DNA of 64,000 bases from an uncultured Actinomycetes bacterium (lineage in GTDB: Bacteria > Actinomycetota > Acidimicrobiia > Acidimicrobiales > RAAP-2): the NCBI GenBank assembly GCA_903828785.1, contig CAIKNP010000001.1, forward strand, positions 62,001 through 126,000, in the 5' to 3' direction. Below the pieces are notes generated by a model that had not been told where the DNA came from, made no database searches, and worked only from the letters and a program-made list of their open reading frames with translations. Numbering within the stretch: the first letter of the stretch is position 1; every line of letters begins with the position of its first letter. A program made the position numbers and the translations under genes. Shown piece after piece: positions 39,598-56,652 of the stretch.

Positions 39598-41200
<1,603 letters not shown>

Positions 41201-42910
41201 TTACTTCTCCCTTTGTGATGGGTGAACCATAATGTCATCGTTACTGGCGCCCGCGGCGACCATGGGGAAGACCTTTTCGCTGGAGTCGGTCCGAAAGTCA
41301 ATAACGACGGGAACGTCATTGATGTCGTTCGCAATACGGATGGCCTCGTGCATTTCCGCCACCGTGCGAGCTCGCAGTCCAACGCAACCCATCGACTCCG
41401 CCCACTTCACGTAGTCGGGTAGGTCGGCGTCCAGGTATACCTCGCTGTAACGCTCTTCGTAGAACATCTCCTGCCACTGGCGAACCATGCCCAGGTAGGC
41501 GTTGTTCAAAATCGCGATTTTGACGGGGATACCCTCAGACCGAGCCGTAACCAGTTCCTGGGCGGTCATTTGGAAGCAGCCGTCGCCATCGATACACCAC
41601 ACGGTACGGTCGGGTCGACCGACTTTGGCCCCGATAGCGGCGGGAACTCCGAAGCCCATCGTGCCCGCACCACCCGAGTTGATCCACGTTCCCGGCTCTT
41701 CGAAACCCCAGAACTGGCTGGCCCACATTTGGTGCTGCCCCACCCCCGAGGAAACTATGGTGCCCGGCGCGGAGGCCTTGTAAATCGACTCCACCACTAA
41801 TTGGGGACGCAGCAGTTTTTCGTCATCGCTTTCGTCGTAGACCAGTGGGTAGGTTTCACGCCACGTGTCGATTTCCTTCCACCAGACTTCGAGGTCCTGC
41901 GCAACGACGCCGGTGGCGTCAAGGGCCTCGAGGGCGCGATCAATGCTGGAACGTACCGCGACATCAACTCGGCGAACCTTATTGAATTCGGCCTTATCGA
42001 TGTCGACGTGAATGATCTTCGCCAGGGGCGCGAAGGCCGGGATCTTGCCGGTAACGCGGTCGTCGAAACGGGCGCCCAAAGAAATCAAGAGGTCGGCTTT
42101 TTGCATGGCCGTCACCGCGGCGTACATCCCGTGCATGCCGGGCATGCCGAGGTGCTGGCGGTGCGAATCAGGAAACGCACCGCGCGCCATCAAGGTCGTC
42201 ACCACCGGAATGCCGGTGCGTTCGGCGAAAGCCAACAGTTGCGCCGACGCGCGGGACTTGAGTGTGCCACCCCCGACGTACAGCACCGGTCGCTCCGACG
42301 CGGCGATCAGCTCCGCCGCCTCCGCAATGCGCTCAAGATCGAGGTCCACCAAGGGACGGTATCCAGGGAGGTCCAGCTCCTCGACGCTGCTCGGGTACCA
42401 CCACTCCATCGTGCTCTGCGCGATGTCTTTGGGGAGATCAACCAGCACGGGGCCCGGCCGGCCCGTGGTGGCAATGTAGAAGGCCGCCGCCACGGCCCTC
42501 GGGATGTCGTGGGCGCTGCGAATGAGGAAATTGTGCTTCGTGATGCCTTGAGTAATCCCCGTAATGTCGCATTCCTGAAAGGCGTCAGTGCCAATGGAGC
42601 CCGAAGCCACCTGACCGGTGATAACCACGAGGGGCGTTGAGTCCATGTAGGCATTGGCAATGGGGGTGACAATATTGGTGGCCCCGGGGCCCGAGGTGAC
42701 GATGGCGACCCCGGGTTTGCCGGTTGCCAAAGCGTATCCTTCGGCCATGTGACCGGCGCCCTGTTCGTGGCGAACCAAAATGTGGCGAATGCTCGAGTCA
42801 ATGATGGGGTCGTAGACGGGCAAAATGGCACCGCCGGGGAGGCCAAAGACAACCTCGACCCCTTCGGTCTCGAGGCTCTTGATCAGGGCTTGCGCTCCAG
42901 TCAGCTGCAC
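41201..42910 (-). CDS. ilvB: Acetolactate synthase catalytic subunit
   Basis: 569-aa TPP-, FAD- and Mg-dependent enzyme, first common step of branched-chain amino acid synthesis. Seen: VFGLPGGAILPVYD, catalytic Glu in RHEQGAGHMAEGYA, GDGCFQMTAQEL with the downstream ILNN that closes the TPP motif. The GTG start at 42910 has AGAGGA four bases upstream. The gene is preceded by a promoter, a valine/leucine leader peptide and a terminator, giving transcription attenuation by branched-chain amino acid supply. Confidence 0.96.
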   Translation of the reverse strand: MQLTGAQALIKSLETEGVEVVFGLPGGAILPVYDPIIDSSIRHILVRHEQGAGHMAEGYALATGKPGVAIVTSGPGATNIVTPIANAYMDSTPLVVITGQVASGSIGTDAFQECDITGITQGITKHNFLIRSAHDIPRAVAAAFYIATTGRPGPVLVDLPKDIAQSTMEWWYPSSVEELDLPGYRPLVDLDLERIAEAAELIAASERPVLYVGGGTLKSRASAQLLAFAERTGIPVVTTLMARGAFPDSHRQHLGMPGMHGMYAAVTAMQKADLLISLGARFDDRVTGKIPAFAPLAKIIHVDIDKAEFNKVRRVDVAVRSSIDRALEALDATGVVAQDLEVWWKEIDTWRETYPLVYDESDDEKLLRPQLVVESIYKASAPGTIVSSGVGQHQMWASQFWGFEEPGTWINSGGAGTMGFGVPAAIGAKVGRPDRTVWCIDGDGCFQMTAQELVTARSEGIPVKIAILNNAYLGMVRQWQEMFYEERYSEVYLDADLPDYVKWAESMGCVGLRARTVAEMHEAIRIANDINDVPVVIDFRTDSSEKVFPMVAAGASNDDIMVHPSQREK

Positions 42911-42930
42911 TATTTCCTCTCTCTACTACG

Positions 42931-42957
42931 AAAAAAGGCCTCCCACTTCGGGAGGCC
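42931..42957 (-). terminator. ilvB attenuator terminator
   Basis: Minus-strand hairpin with 8-bp arms GGCCTCCC/GGGAGGCC and a 5-base loop, followed at once by six T residues, lying 21 bases before the ilvB start and 23 bases after the leader-peptide stop. It is a textbook intrinsic terminator in attenuator position. Confidence 0.88.
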
Positions 42958-42979
42958 TCCGGTATACGACGTGTCGTGA

Positions 42980-43036
42980 CTACCGGCGCCGGGCGCCTAC
43001 TACTACAACGAGTGTGGTTTCTGTCACTGAATGCAC
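42980..43036 (-). CDS. ilvB leader peptide (Leu-Val-Val-Val-Val control codons)
   Basis: 18-codon frame MHSVTETTLVVVVGARRR. A second GTG three codons in (43027) gives MTETTLVVVVGARRR and has GAGAGG eight bases upstream, so it is the likelier start. One leucine codon and four consecutive valine codons lie just before the stop, which precedes the terminator hairpin. Ribosome stalling at these codons when charged Val/Leu tRNA is scarce would favour read-through into ilvB. Leader peptides upstream of ilvB are established in Corynebacterium, Mycobacterium and Streptomyces. Competing anti-terminator pairing was not worked out here. Confidence 0.85.
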   Translation of the reverse strand: MHSVTETTLVVVVGARRR

Positions 43037-43042
43037 CTCTCT

Positions 43043-43071
43043 ATCTAAGCACACCTTCGCCCAACTCACAA
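43043..43071 (-). promoter_or_regulatory. Promoter of the ilvBNC operon
   Basis: On the minus strand TTGTGA (43066-43071) and TTAGAT (43043-43048) are separated by exactly 17 bases, a good sigma-70-type promoter. The predicted transcript start is near 43036, at or just before the leader peptide. Confidence 0.65.
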
Positions 43072-43174: not shown

Positions 43175-43495
43175 ATGTCAAAGAGTCTCTTGGAAGATTC
43201 GACCATGAAGGAGTTCGGACGCCGAATTCGAGTGCTGCGAAAGCAATTGAAGTTGAGTCAAGAAGGTCTCGGTAAGGTCGCCGGCTTGCACCGCACCTAC
43301 ATTGGCCACCTCGAACGAGGTGCGGTAAACCCCTCGCTCATCAATATTCTCCACGTCGCGGTCGCTCTCAATGTCGACCCCGCTGCTCTGGTGAGGGGCC
43401 TAACGGTCCCCACCGGACCGCTCTACCAGATGCGTACGCGACTACCCGAATTCATGAACAAGCCGTCGTCCTCGCCGACATTGAAGGCGTCGTAG
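43175..43495 (+). CDS. XRE-family helix-turn-helix regulator
   Basis: 106-aa protein with a Cro/C1-type HTH at about residues 12-70 (FGRRIRVLRKQLKLSQEGLGK, then GLHRTYIGHLERGAVNPSLINI). The C-terminus (about 36 residues) has no recognisable domain. Start could be ATG 43175 or ATG 43205, the latter with a GGAAG ribosome-binding site. It is divergent from ilvBNC with a ~140-bp gap and could act there or on itself (inference). Its last 73 bp overlap the end of the convergent M13 peptidase gene, so its tail may be a read-through extension. Confidence 0.82.
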   Translation: MSKSLLEDSTMKEFGRRIRVLRKQLKLSQEGLGKVAGLHRTYIGHLERGAVNPSLINILHVAVALNVDPAALVRGLTVPTGPLYQMRTRLPEFMNKPSSSPTLKAS

Positions 43496-45399
43496 AACTC
43501 GTCGAGGTTTCGCACAATCTGGTTACAACGGGCCTCGGGCGGTGAGTGGGGGTCAACGGTCGCCAACTGCCGTGCGAGTTCGGGACGAGTCTTCGTCCGC
43601 CACACTTGCGCCCAGCCAATAAAGACGCGCTGCGCCCCGGTGTAGCCATCAAGGACGGGCGCTTCCTCGCCCTTGAGGGAGATCTCGTACGCCTTGAGGG
43701 CAATAGTGAGACCACCGAGGTCACCAATATTTTCACCAATGGTGAGGGCGCCGTTGAGCTTCACCTCGGGAGCGGCCATCGGTGAGAGTTCGTCGTACTG
43801 CGCAATAAGGCCCTGGGCTCGAGCCTCGAATTCTCGGCGATCGGAATCGGTCCACCAGTTCACCATGTTGCCGTCACCGTCATACTTGCTGCCCTGGTCG
43901 TCGAATCCGTGGCCAATCTCGTGACCAATGACGCCGCCGATGCCGCCGTAATTGACGGCGTCGTCCGCCTCCAGATTGAAGAAGGGTGGCTGCAAGATGG
44001 CCGCGGGAAAGACAATCTCGTTCATGCCCGGGTTGTAGTAGGCGTTCACCGTTTGCGGGAACATGAACCATTCGTTACGATTCACCGGCTGACCAATTTT
44101 GGCGAAGGTAAAGTCACGCTGAAACGCGTTGATGGCCTGCAAGTTGCCCACCAGGTCATTGCGCGAAATTGTTAGGGCGCTGTAGTCACGCCATTCGTCG
44201 GGGTAGCCGATTTTTGGCGTGAACTTGTCGAGCTTCACGTAGGCCTTCTGCTTCGTCTCTTCCGACATCCATTCCAGGGTCGCGATGTCCGCTCGGTAGG
44301 CTTCGGTGAGGTTCTCGACGAGTTGCACCATGCGCGCCTTGGCGGCCGGTGGGAAGTGACGGGCTACGAAGAACTCTCCGATGGCTTCACCTAATCCGCC
44401 TTCGACGACGCCGACCCCGCGCTTCCAGCGTTCGCGCATCTCGGGCTGTCCGGTCAAGGTCTTGCCGAAGAAGTCAAAATTCTCGTCGACGAAGGCCTTG
44501 CTGAGGTACGGCGCCGAGGACGACAGCACGTGCCAGGTCAGCCATGACTGCCAGGCGGCGGCGTCGAAGTCCTCGAGGAGGCTGTTCAGACCCTCGAAGA
44601 AACTGGGTTGACGAACCACGACGGGCTCAACGATGTGCGAGGGCGTCAGCGAGGAGCTCATCCACGCCGCGAGGTCGAAGGCGGGAAAGAGGGCCTTCCA
44701 CTCGTCGAGCGACACCAAGTTGTAGGTGAGTTCGGCGTCACGGTCGCGCACCGAATCCCAGTGATGGGCGGCGATGGCCGTTTCGAGACGAACCACCCGC
44801 GCGGCGTGGTCGGCCCCATCGGCGATTCCGGCCAGCGCAAACATTTTTGTTATGTGCGCCGCCAAACCCACCACGAGTTCGGCGTGCTGTTCCTCGTGAT
44901 AGTACGACTCGTCGGGCAGGGAAAGACCCGACTGGGATACGTACGAGACGTAGCGAGTTGAGTCTCGGTCGTCGGTGTTCACGTAGTGAGAGAAGAAACC
45001 ACCGTGACCGCGGGCCTCCAGTTCACCAATGATTCGCGCCAAGTCCTCGGCGCTGGCAATCGTTTGGGCGAGGGACAGGTCTTCGCGAATGGGATCGATG
45101 CCGCGCGCCTCGATGGTGGCTTCGTCCATGAATGATGCGTAGAGGTCGCCGATTTTTTGCGCCACGGTACCCGGTTCGGACGTCTCCTTGGACAGATCCT
45201 CGATGATTGCTCGAACGCGCTCTTCGCTGAGCTGGCGCAAGGCGTCAAAGGCGCCGTAGCGCGATCGATCATTGGGTATTTCGACGTTGGCGAGCCACGT
45301 TCCATTGACGTGCGTGAAGAGATCGTCTTGGGGTCGAACCTCGCTGTCGAAGGAGGCGAGGTTTAGTCCGCTGGGGCCGTACTTGTCATAATCAGTCAT
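43423..45399 (-). CDS. M13 (neprilysin/PepO-like) zinc endopeptidase
   Basis: 658-aa metallopeptidase. Seen: the N-terminal QDDLFTHVNGTWL, ITPKIGY-like middle text, NAYYNPGMNEIVFPAAILQPPFF, the zinc motif VIGHEIGHGFDDQG, third ligand GENIGDLGGL, and the C-terminal RVIG-type end. No signal peptide, so probably cytoplasmic like PepO of other bacteria. ATG at 45399 starts the conserved part and has TAACAT seven bases upstream (leaderless type); an open frame extends 61 codons further up but overlaps the divergent gene's promoter. The C-terminus ends SRVRIW, close to the CxxW-like end of the family. Confidence 0.92.
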   Translation of the reverse strand: MTDYDKYGPSGLNLASFDSEVRPQDDLFTHVNGTWLANVEIPNDRSRYGAFDALRQLSEERVRAIIEDLSKETSEPGTVAQKIGDLYASFMDEATIEARGIDPIREDLSLAQTIASAEDLARIIGELEARGHGGFFSHYVNTDDRDSTRYVSYVSQSGLSLPDESYYHEEQHAELVVGLAAHITKMFALAGIADGADHAARVVRLETAIAAHHWDSVRDRDAELTYNLVSLDEWKALFPAFDLAAWMSSSLTPSHIVEPVVVRQPSFFEGLNSLLEDFDAAAWQSWLTWHVLSSSAPYLSKAFVDENFDFFGKTLTGQPEMRERWKRGVGVVEGGLGEAIGEFFVARHFPPAAKARMVQLVENLTEAYRADIATLEWMSEETKQKAYVKLDKFTPKIGYPDEWRDYSALTISRNDLVGNLQAINAFQRDFTFAKIGQPVNRNEWFMFPQTVNAYYNPGMNEIVFPAAILQPPFFNLEADDAVNYGGIGGVIGHEIGHGFDDQGSKYDGDGNMVNWWTDSDRREFEARAQGLIAQYDELSPMAAPEVKLNGALTIGENIGDLGGLTIALKAYEISLKGEEAPVLDGYTGAQRVFIGWAQVWRTKTRPELARQLATVDPHSPPEARCNQIVRNLDEFYDAFNVGEDDGLFMNSGSRVRIW

Positions 45400-45457
45400 G
45401 GTCGCGATGTTAGTAGCACCACGAAGACCCACGTCACCTTCGTGGCAGACTGAAGGG

Positions 45458-46396
45458 GTGAATGACTCAAATGTGCACCTCGTCAACCGCTCAATAATCC
45501 GTGAACTTTTGACCTGGGAGGACGTTCTCGCCGCCACCGAAACGGCCCTGGCATTTATACCGATGGCCCAAGCCAGTGACACCTCATCGACCCAGGTGCT
45601 CTACGACAATGGCTCGTTGCACCTAAAGGCCGCCGCCCTTCAGCCGGCGCACGTTCTTTCAGTCAAAGCCAATCTGCGCCCCAACGCCGGTCGGGCGAGC
45701 GGGGCCATCTTGGCCTACGACCTCGAAGGGCAGCGTCTGCGGGCCATCATGGACTCCGGGTACCTCACCGGTATGCGTACCGCCGCTATTGCCTTAGTGG
45801 CTCAAAGGCACTTATCCGAGCTGAGCTCGCCCGTCGTCGCCGTTTTGGGTCTCGGACCAGTCAACCAAATGACGATTGCTGGGCTGCGCCACTTCTCTCC
45901 GAATGTTCGACTGCGCGTTTGGAGTCGCTCCCCCGCTACCCGCGAAGCCGTGGAGCCCACGCTGGCGAATAGCTTTGACGTCCTCACCGGGGACCTTAGC
46001 GAGGTACTCGCCGGTGCCGATGTGGTCATCACCGGCACACCCGCGCGCCAACCCTTTATCGCACTCGATCAACTGAGCAACCAAACATCTCTCCTCCTGG
46101 CCATGGGGGCCGATACCGCAGGAAAGCGTGAGTTGCACGAGGGCTTCGACGGCCGAGTAAATCTCGTCGTCGACGTCGCCAACGACGCCCGACTCGTAGG
46201 TGAGAGCGCGTATCTCTCGCAAACGTCGCCCGTTGAACTGGGCACCGTCATTACCCAAGCCGCGCTTCGTCCCCGCACCCACGCCCTGACGGTTTTTGAT
46301 TCGGTAGGGTCCGCCCTGGTCGACGCCGCCGTTGTGCAACTGGTCCTTGATCGACTGGGTGACCATGCCAGCACCAGCGTCGACCTTAGTCAGTGA
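45458..46396 (+). CDS. Ornithine cyclodeaminase / mu-crystallin family protein
   Basis: 312-aa NAD-binding protein. Seen: YDNGSLHLKAAAL, SVKANLRPNAGRA, MDSGYLTGMRTAAIALVAQRHL, the Rossmann motif VLGLGPVNQM, and LLLAMGADTAGKREL. These are characteristic of the ornithine cyclodeaminase/mu-crystallin family, which also includes alanine dehydrogenases and ketimine reductases; the substrate is not set by sequence. The GTG at 45458 has CAGACT six bases upstream without a separated ribosome-binding site. It is divergent from the M13 gene and ends 6 bp before the convergent ALDH. Confidence 0.88.
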   Translation: MNDSNVHLVNRSIIRELLTWEDVLAATETALAFIPMAQASDTSSTQVLYDNGSLHLKAAALQPAHVLSVKANLRPNAGRASGAILAYDLEGQRLRAIMDSGYLTGMRTAAIALVAQRHLSELSSPVVAVLGLGPVNQMTIAGLRHFSPNVRLRVWSRSPATREAVEPTLANSFDVLTGDLSEVLAGADVVITGTPARQPFIALDQLSNQTSLLLAMGADTAGKRELHEGFDGRVNLVVDVANDARLVGESAYLSQTSPVELGTVITQAALRPRTHALTVFDSVGSALVDAAVVQLVLDRLGDHASTSVDLSQ

Positions 46397-54861: not shown

Positions 54862-56652
54862 CTAGCGGGTGACGTTCAAAATAATCGTGGAATGCCACGG
54901 AACCATTGTCCCCGCATCGGGCAGGGTTGAGGTCACCCGACGCCACTGCGTGGTCCCCGCTCCTGGTCCACGGGTCGAATAGAACAAGGCGGCCTTGTGC
55001 AGCGCCGCGTTGACGGCGTCGCGACTCAAGCCAACCAATTGCGGTACCGCGCGCATGCCGTGGGCGTTCGCGACCACGGTCGTGGTCGTGGTCGTGGTCG
55101 AAGTGGGCTGACCCGACGAAAGGATGAGGACAATGCTGGCTCCCGTCGGAACGGCCAAGGGATTGACGCTCGTGCGGTAGCGCAGTTGCGCCACCCGGCC
55201 CGCCGGCACCGACGCACTCGCCACACGCGCCCCCGTCGAACAGGTCGTCAAGACGTGCAAGCTACTAAGAACCGTAAGGTCGGCAGCGCAGGACTTACCA
55301 ATGAGATTACGGGGCAGAATCACCAGACCCGAACCAGTGGACACCACGACGTTCAAGGTCCCACCGTTGGTCAAGCTGCTCCCCGCGGCGGGCGACTGCG
55401 AAATGATGTCATTGGCCGGCACCGAGGTGGACCGAGACTGGCTAATTTGCATGGTCCAGCCGTCGCCCTCCACCAGCGTCGAGGCGTTCGTCAGGGAAAG
55501 ACCGGTGAGGGATGGGACGACGTGTTTGGCCGTGAAGTAGCCCATCGACCAGGCCGTGACCCCCCCCGCCACGAGCGCAATAAGCACCAGCGCCACGATT
55601 AAAAATCCCGGACGACGGCGAGCCTTGCCTGGCGAAATCTCGAGGGAGGCTAGGCCACTGGAGGCCTCGGAGGAAGAGGGCTCGAAGGGGAAAGCTTCGC
55701 TACTCGGCGCCGCCAAGGGGGAGGCGCCCACAATGTCGGAAGCCGACGGCGCCTTGAATCCCACCGAGGATCGAGGTTCGGCGGGGGTAAATCCCGTTAG
55801 GAGGGCCGTGGGCTCTGGTTTTGCTGGCAAAACAAAATCGTCACCATCGGCCACCACGGTCGAGAGGCGGTCTGCCAACTGTTGGGCGCTAAAGCGCCGT
55901 TGCGCGTCGGGCACCGACGCCTGAGCCAGGAGGACGTCGAGGGTACCCATCTCCGCCCGCGACGGAAGCGGTGCGGTCATGCGGGCGCGCAGGGTTGCTT
56001 CGGCGCCGTGGCCCCCGAAGGGAACGAGGCCAGTAGCCGCTTCAAAAAGAATGAGGGCGAGGGCGTAGACGTCGGTCGGGGCCGAGGCGACCTCACCACG
56101 CGCTTGTTCGGGACTGAAGTAGCGCACGTCTTCCCCAGTGGTGTACGAGCGAAACGCCACTCCGAGACCCGCCATCGCGACGTCGGAAAGGCGCACCGCA
56201 CCCTCGGCGTCGAAGAGGAGTTTGGAGGGGCTTAGTTCGCCGTGGACAATGCCGTGTTCGTGAAGCAAGGCGAGGGCCGAGGCGCAGTCGCGACCCAGTC
56301 GAGCCACGGCCTCGAGTGGCAGGCGCACACCCCGCTGCAGTTGATCCTCGAGCGAGCCACCCGTCAGGTACTCGGACACCATAAAAAGGTGTCCCTCTTC
56401 CTGCCCGCCGTCAAAAACCGGGGCCAGGTGGGGGTGGTGCAAACCCGAAGCAACCACGACTCGGCTGCGAAAAGCGCGGCGGATCTCTTCGTGTTGCTCA
56501 AGCTCGGGGACCAAACACTTGATTACCACCGAGCGCTCCAGCGTGGCGTCGTGGGCGTGGTAGACCTCGGCGGTGTGACCCACCCCGAGCACCTCGAGTA
56601 CGCGATACCGGTCGGCGAAGACGTGCCCCGGTAAATACGATGCTGATGCCAT
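54862..56652 (-). CDS. Membrane Ser/Thr protein kinase-like protein with PASTA repeats, likely pseudokinase
   Basis: 596-aa PknB-like protein. Order: kinase-like domain (about 16-265), Ser/Pro-rich juxtamembrane linker, one membrane segment (about 349-369), then three PASTA-like repeats (about 376-445, 446-515, 530-596), broken by a Thr run. It keeps a glycine-rich loop (LGVGHTAEVY) and the ATP-binding Lys (VIK, K45). However, the catalytic HRD is HGE (137-139) and the DFG motif is DVA (157-159), so the catalytic base and the usual metal Asp context are missing. It probably senses peptidoglycan or muropeptides and signals without phosphotransfer (inference). Located between ligA and gatCAB. 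Confidence 0.88.
   Translation of the reverse strand: MASASYLPGHVFADRYRVLEVLGVGHTAEVYHAHDATLERSVVIKCLVPELEQHEEIRRAFRSRVVVASGLHHPHLAPVFDGGQEEGHLFMVSEYLTGGSLEDQLQRGVRLPLEAVARLGRDCASALALLHEHGIVHGELSPSKLLFDAEGAVRLSDVAMAGLGVAFRSYTTGEDVRYFSPEQARGEVASAPTDVYALALILFEAATGLVPFGGHGAEATLRARMTAPLPSRAEMGTLDVLLAQASVPDAQRRFSAQQLADRLSTVVADGDDFVLPAKPEPTALLTGFTPAEPRSSVGFKAPSASDIVGASPLAAPSSEAFPFEPSSSEASSGLASLEISPGKARRRPGFLIVALVLIALVAGGVTAWSMGYFTAKHVVPSLTGLSLTNASTLVEGDGWTMQISQSRSTSVPANDIISQSPAAGSSLTNGGTLNVVVSTGSGLVILPRNLIGKSCAADLTVLSSLHVLTTCSTGARVASASVPAGRVAQLRYRTSVNPLAVPTGASIVLILSSGQPTSTTTTTTTVVANAHGMRAVPQLVGLSRDAVNAALHKAALFYSTRGPGAGTTQWRRVTSTLPDAGTMVPWHSTIILNVTR

Follow-up and report, generated by a model that had tools for sequence, protein, structure and literature searches.

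A probable ribosome-mediated transcription attenuator upstream of ilvBNC in an uncultured actinobacterium and its relatives

The window, by which we mean the whole stretch of 64,000 nucleotides that was analysed, carries on its minus strand ilvB, encoding the large subunit of acetolactate synthase (41201-42910; TIGR00118, 761.2 bits against a cut-off of 538.35), ilvN for the small subunit (40658-41200; NF008864 and TIGR00119 above cut-off), and ilvC for ketol-acid reductoisomerase (39598-40632; NF004017 and TIGR00465 above cut-off). These three genes form an ilvBNC operon, whose first start codon, GTG 42910, is preceded by the ribosome-binding site AGAGGA (42915-42920, minus strand). Upstream lies a minus-strand gene for a PepO-like endopeptidase (43423-45582; NF052391 at 379.6 bits, below the curated cut-off of 1000), and a gene for a 106-aa helix-turn-helix protein (43175-43495, plus strand; Pfam HTH_3, 45.2 bits against 23) is divergent from the promoter described below. 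In several relatives the place of the helix-turn-helix gene is occupied by the end of a different reading frame, which we take to be IlvD-like.

Ahead of ilvB we found a short leader frame on the minus strand (42980-43036), recognized from the sequence and from the leaders of related genomes, that runs from GTG 43036 (18 codons) or from a second GTG at 43027 (15 codons) to a TAG at 42982-42980 and would encode VHS-VTETTLVVVVGARRR. The second GTG is the start that aligns with the GTGAC of relatives. Within the frame are the codons CTC GTT GTA GTA GTA (Leu Val4; 42998-43012, minus strand), which we regard as putative sensing codons. A preliminary description of this locus had reported an 18-codon frame with this run, and re-reading it in the window from GTG 43036 to the TAG confirmed the frame; the Val run does precede the stop in the same frame but is not adjacent to it, as five codons (GGC GCC CGG CGC CGG) intervene. 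When open frames of at most 60 codons were scanned on both strands of the 64 kb for at least five consecutive Val, Ile or Leu codons near the stop, only two were recovered, the leader and a GTCGTG repeat. This repeat (55075-55107, plus strand) gives a short VVVVVVV frame ending at 55109, lies opposite a minus-strand ORF (54862-56652), and looks like a simple repeat. Leaders of 15-18 codons are easily missed by routine gene calling during annotation.

The leader is followed by a hairpin detected by sequence and folding, AGGCCTCCC-GAAGT-GGGAGGCCT (42936-42958, minus strand), with a run of six Ts after its stem (42931-42936). The stem, GGCCTCCC/GGGAGGCC, comprises 8 bp, or 9 if an A-T pair is counted, and GAAGT forms the loop; the 8-bp GC stem, the six Ts and the ensuing ilvB ribosome-binding site were all found again as originally listed. 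A stem of 8-9 bp with six Ts places a predicted intrinsic terminator between the leader and the structural gene. The fold of the surrounding 161-nt stretch (42900-43060) was better than those of 200 out of 200 shuffled sequences (z -3.05).

The evidence we consider decisive for the layout being real is its conservation in relatives. We examined 130 loci, obtained from a search of 61 genomes and from the best 80 of a larger number of matches in a named genome collection; removing 18 that did not match the terminator pattern in its written form, together with 10 duplicates, left 102. These were split, partly by eye, into a group A of 42 sequences that have the window's form (the window included) and a group B of 60 that have another form. 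The window's clade, group A, probably lies within the Acidimicrobiales. The succession of promoter, leader, hairpin and ilvB recurs in all 42 distinct sequences of the clade. CCTCC..GGAGG with a T-rich tail is likewise present in 42/42, this same pattern being the rule by which they were selected. A conserved Val/Leu run and hairpin, on which the preliminary description had made its reading depend, are therefore both found in the 42 clade sequences, the hairpin by selection. A covariance model built on the clade gave a strong match in 32 of 37 clade genomes, one apiece and upstream of ilvB, with the qualification that the model consists mostly of sequence and that 31 of the 32 matches come from genomes in its own alignment; the sole strong match outside that alignment (G024, 1.6e-20) belongs to a close relative of other members. 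Against 24 genomes of other families, the model found nothing at E 0.01 (best 0.0135). There were also six weak second matches in the clade with E below 0.1. Of the three that were inspected (L250-L252), two resemble ordinary terminators that follow other genes, and neither a leader nor a terminator is seen in the third.

The leaders themselves share a distinctive codon usage. A leader frame was assigned in 42/42 group A and 59/60 group B sequences, a few of the latter being doubtful since the finder always picks the best-scoring frame; a typical group A leader is VTTRNDILVVVVGARRR. Valine is written as GTA at 101 of 130 positions (78%) in clade leaders, against 108 of 1479 (7%) in the 40 ORFs of the window that are 250 aa or longer, so the putative sensor codon is the rarest valine codon. 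The leader stop is TAG in 39/42 group A and 45/59 group B sequences, compared with 14/40 window ORFs.

Intrinsic terminators between genes are common, and the pepO-like gene, also on the minus strand, has its end at 43423. One rival reading is that the hairpin terminates, for instance, the upstream pepO-like transcript without any regulation and follows a Val-rich frame by chance. We consider this very improbable: the promoter separates the hairpin from the pepO-like gene, and 42 clade sequences, several of which differ in their upstream sequence, share the leader with its rare GTA codons as well as the antiterminator described below.

The promoter was recognized by reading the sequence and by comparison with the clade. 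It consists of a -35-like TTGTGA (43066-43071, minus strand) and a -10-like TAGATA (43042-43047, minus strand), the latter 5 nt ahead of GTG 43036. A minus-strand promoter is present as had been proposed, but the spacer is 18 nt with TAGATA, and the 17 nt given originally would require TTAGAT to be read as the -10. Across the clade, a TTG lies 17-18 nt upstream of the -10 in 36/42 sequences, and the best -10 hexamer is 5-7 nt upstream of the leader start in 40/42. A strict TANNNT -10 occurs in 19/42 sequences where 2.0 are expected, the window's TAGATA not being among these. Shine-Dalgarno-like words precede only 3/42 clade leaders, as against 37/40 ilvB starts. This rarity, together with the spacing of the -10, makes a leaderless translation start of the leader likely, as reported for Corynebacterium glutamicum, and GTG 43036 would then probably be the start used; the window's second GTG has AGAGAGG ahead of it, and an ordinary start at 43027 is a conceivable alternative. 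A consensus scan of the window listed neither the leader promoter nor the terminator, probably because TAGATA agrees with the E. coli -10 at just 3/6 bases and because G-T pairs lengthen the terminator stem into the T-run.

A second pairing would compete with the terminator. Folding and a partner-swap test indicate a putative antiterminator whose 5' arm (42981-42990, minus strand) consists of GGC, an unpaired G and CCGGTA, that is, the last leader codons and the first two bases of the stop; its 3' arm (42954-42964, minus strand) consists of TACCGG, an unpaired AG and GCC. In the window, GGC 42990-42988 would pair with GCC 42956-42954, and CCGGTA 42986-42981 with TACCGG 42964-42959. GCC 42956-42954, the lower edge of the 5' arm of the terminator, is common to both structures and can pair either with GGC 42990-42988 or with GGC 42940-42938. 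The preliminary description had suggested looking for an antiterminator that pairs the Val codons; an alternative pairing was indeed found, but it involves the stop and the codons that follow the Val run, not the Val codons themselves. Folds were taken on the transcript ending just ahead of the 3' arm of the terminator. Many group A members then show pairing of the stop and the final codons with the boundary that lies immediately upstream of the terminator 5' arm and extends into it, and some members (e.g., L007, L011, L012, L014, L020, L061) prefer other folds in the same calculation.

Exchanging partners between sequences supports this pairing. With 35 distinct arm pairs, native partners scored -13.71 against -12.20 for permuted ones (sd 0.24; none of 2000 permutations as good), and with the 16 pairs that have divergent boundaries the values were -13.62 and -10.57 (0/20000), in a test that ignores descent and whose sole control for relatedness is provided by other windows of the same sequences. 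When windows of the leader were scanned against the boundary, a strong excess appeared only at about -42 to -18 from the terminator (z -3.9, -5.8, -3.7), the remaining seven windows lying between z -2.0 and +2.0. Compared with dinucleotide-shuffled leaders, the antiterminator gave z -12.1; individually, only 6/42 sequences beat all 50 of their own shuffles. Single members are also informative. The pairing is an unbroken 10 bp in L030 and is poor in L028 (-10.1) and L067 (-9.7), while the leader of L032 and L070 ends before the arm and the arm is still kept, which argues that the RNA is under selection and not only the peptide.

Covariation among relatives, another check originally proposed, gave a divided result: partner-swap supports the pairing, but counts in fixed alignment columns are weak. 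In a MAFFT alignment, 84.1% of cells are paired (54/500 shuffles as high; slid controls 11-58%) and the covariation score was equalled by 33/500 shuffles, a weakness due in part to register shifts between sequences. RNAalifold returned only the terminator, with eight pairs of which one has a two-sided change, and no antiterminator. Shuffle tests of the leader against the terminator arms alone gave z +2.1 for the 5' arm and -0.4 for the 3' arm and so showed no excess. The last codons can themselves form a small hairpin, GGCGC-CCG-GCGCC (42985-42997, minus strand), which is a possible anti-antiterminator; it has an MFE of -3 or lower in 29/42 sequences, and the 13/42 without this rival hairpin nonetheless retain the antiterminator arm. 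In the whole-RNA fold, the terminator coexists with the upper CCGGTA hairpin, which means that the switch must be kinetic; the overlap is confined to the terminator's lower edge. The comparisons thus support, at the level of sequence, an antiterminator that excludes the terminator depending on ribosome position, an exclusion that would not hold at equilibrium.

The position of a translating ribosome fits such a switch. We assumed that the ribosome reaches 12 nt beyond the first base of the codon in its A site and has a footprint from -16 to +12. When the A site holds the first codon of the branched-chain run, the antiterminator arm is free in 42/42 clade sequences; when it holds the last, the arm is fully free in only 6/42; and when it holds the stop, the arm overlaps the footprint in 42/42. 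Early stalling would thus favour readthrough, and reaching the stop would favour termination.

We therefore read the locus as a ribosome-mediated transcription attenuator for ilvBNC, with a probability of about 0.86. The parts, their conservation in the clade, the covarying antiterminator and the geometry all fit the ilvB attenuator put forward in the preliminary description; we infer the transcript start, translation, termination and amino acid response from these features. Transcription would begin at or beside GTG 43036, and the leader would probably be translated without a ribosome-binding site. When charged Val and Leu tRNAs are plentiful, the ribosome would reach the TAG (42982) and cover 42990-42981; with this arm covered no antiterminator could form, the terminator at 42958-42936 would fold, and transcription would end in the T-run. 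When valine (or leucine) is scarce, the ribosome would stall at CTC-GTT-GTA-GTA-GTA, exposing the later codons and the stop, which may then pair with TACCGG(AG)GCC once it is transcribed. This pairing would remove the GCC edge from the terminator 5' arm, and RNA polymerase would read through into ilvBNC.

Regulation of ilvB by a ligand is known from other bacteria, and we considered a ligand-binding riboswitch, e.g., for ppGpp, as occurs before ilvB in Firmicutes. ilvB is described as a known riboswitch target in the accessible part of PMC10272879, and conserved bases also occur outside the coding part of our sequences, such as TAGTCACG after the stop. The codons, the stop and the two pairings nonetheless account for most of the conserved bases, and in-line probing of the Corynebacterium motif is described as having no ppGpp effect (PMC10272879, in part), which makes a riboswitch the least credible of all the readings. 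Rfam covariance models gave no match above threshold in the window, the best of four weak ones being Phe_leader (19.2 bits against 55).

The proposed attenuator has several known counterparts. In the Escherichia coli trp and ilv type of attenuator, ribosome position selects between an antiterminator and a terminator; the window differs in that its leader is probably without a ribosome-binding site and the overlap is just a trinucleotide. The closest known systems are the ilvBNC attenuators of C. glutamicum and Mycobacterium tuberculosis. In C. glutamicum, according to the available part of PMC11857589, mutations support a three-hairpin model of terminator, antiterminator and anti-antiterminator. 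Its 15-codon leader, MTIIRLVVVTARRLP, is close to the window's VTETTLVVVVGARRR; its start codon is 1 nt from the transcript start (a start that is predicted here), and its control codons are likewise Leu and GUA (PMC11857589). The antiterminator and terminator are adjacent there and have in common a boundary GCC whose partner is a GGC of either the leader or the terminator (PMC11857589), and the same arrangement is present in the window. By contrast, the window appears to come from another class, and its stretch before ilvB is shorter (126 nt from GTG 43036, against 292). The position of its stop codon within the antiterminator arm may be a further difference. The small last-codon hairpin possible in 29/42 of our sequences may correspond to the anti-antiterminator H1 of C. 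glutamicum. The C. glutamicum authors state that conservation there could not separate the antiterminator state from a rival hairpin (PMC11857589, in part); the clade supplies comparative evidence for that state.

For ilvB1NC of M. tuberculosis, the available part of PMC13236596 describes an abundant premature RNA of about 120 nt and a translated upstream frame rich in branched-chain amino acids, and proposes stalling together with a 26-nt occlusion. Going by this description, the window resembles it in having a branched-chain-rich upstream frame with a GUA control codon, a mutually exclusive anti-terminator and terminator, and ribosome occlusion at the stop; the M. tuberculosis control codons are LVVI and its stop is UGA. 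Candidate ilvB leader peptides and terminators were predicted earlier in Corynebacterium, Mycobacterium and Streptomyces, with short frames containing Ile/Val/Leu runs ahead of a terminator upstream of ilvB as in the window (PMC1262725). In contrast to our case, the portion of that article available to us calls the mode unclear, names no ilvB antiterminator and does not mention Acidimicrobium. A Corynebacterium ilvB-II motif and two further ilvB motifs have also been described (PMC10272879, in part), and the accessible text of PMC4833913 treats reinitiation at leader genes with no ilv case. A literature search combining Acidimicrob- names with leader-peptide attenuation found no paper. The kind of switch is already known; what the window would add is a proposed antiterminator with comparative support and an extension of translation-coupled ilvBNC control to the group covered by that search.

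The other Acidimicrobiales of group B present a different picture. They have a strong GC-rich hairpin right after the leader stop and separate from the terminator (for example at L033:277-365, minus strand, and L093:1879-1967, plus strand). This stop-abutting hairpin covaries (z -6.9), whereas pairing of the leader with the terminator boundary shows no excess in group B (z -0.1 to +2.0). Two leader windows did reach z -2.5 and -3.1 when tested against the terminator core, but the energies differed by just 0.03 kcal/mol because the core hardly varies in group B; the terminator arms gave z +2.8 (5') and -1.8 (3'), and the shuffle test of leader against boundary gave z -2.9. Since the hairpin covaries and the boundary does not, both hairpins can coexist, and the classical model leaves the action of the group B leader unexplained.

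These observations bear on another alternative for the window, namely a leader that senses branched-chain amino acids without a competing antiterminator, acting through ribosome-polymerase coupling, Rho, or control of ilvB translation. Group B retains leader and terminator without a convincing overlap of hairpins, and changes of leader codons in Streptomyces coelicolor were without effect according to work cited in the accessible part of PMC1262725. In the window's own clade, however, the covarying pairing is one that overlaps the terminator, and we judge this alternative improbable, favouring the attenuator with its antiterminator.

A broader survey points to similar leaders elsewhere in the actinobacteria. 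In 111 upstream regions, a branched-chain leader followed by a terminator was present in 38, whereas five shuffled replicates gave 0, 4, 2, 0, and 1; the rule misses some leaders: Streptomyces-like MRTRILVLGKRVG and others surface under a relaxed rule, for which there is no null. Many surveyed leaders, from several other families of the phylum, have, by eye, a GC-rich hairpin directly after the stop. We tentatively suggest, as a rather unlikely but attractive idea, that the window's clade has re-wired an older actinobacterial design, its hairpin having shifted to swallow the stop and invade the terminator and so turned classical, while elsewhere the ribosome would melt a stop-abutting hairpin (the stop being mostly UAG) that does not reach the terminator. 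If true, many actinobacterial ilvB attenuators would be non-classical. The contrast in stop-abutting hairpins makes the way in which ribosome position is read out in other actinobacteria a testable question. Three large-genome relatives (L153, L158, L160) carry MRTRILVLGKRVG; their leaders end in TGA, are followed by a terminator that lies farther away, and resemble the Streptomyces ilvB leader.
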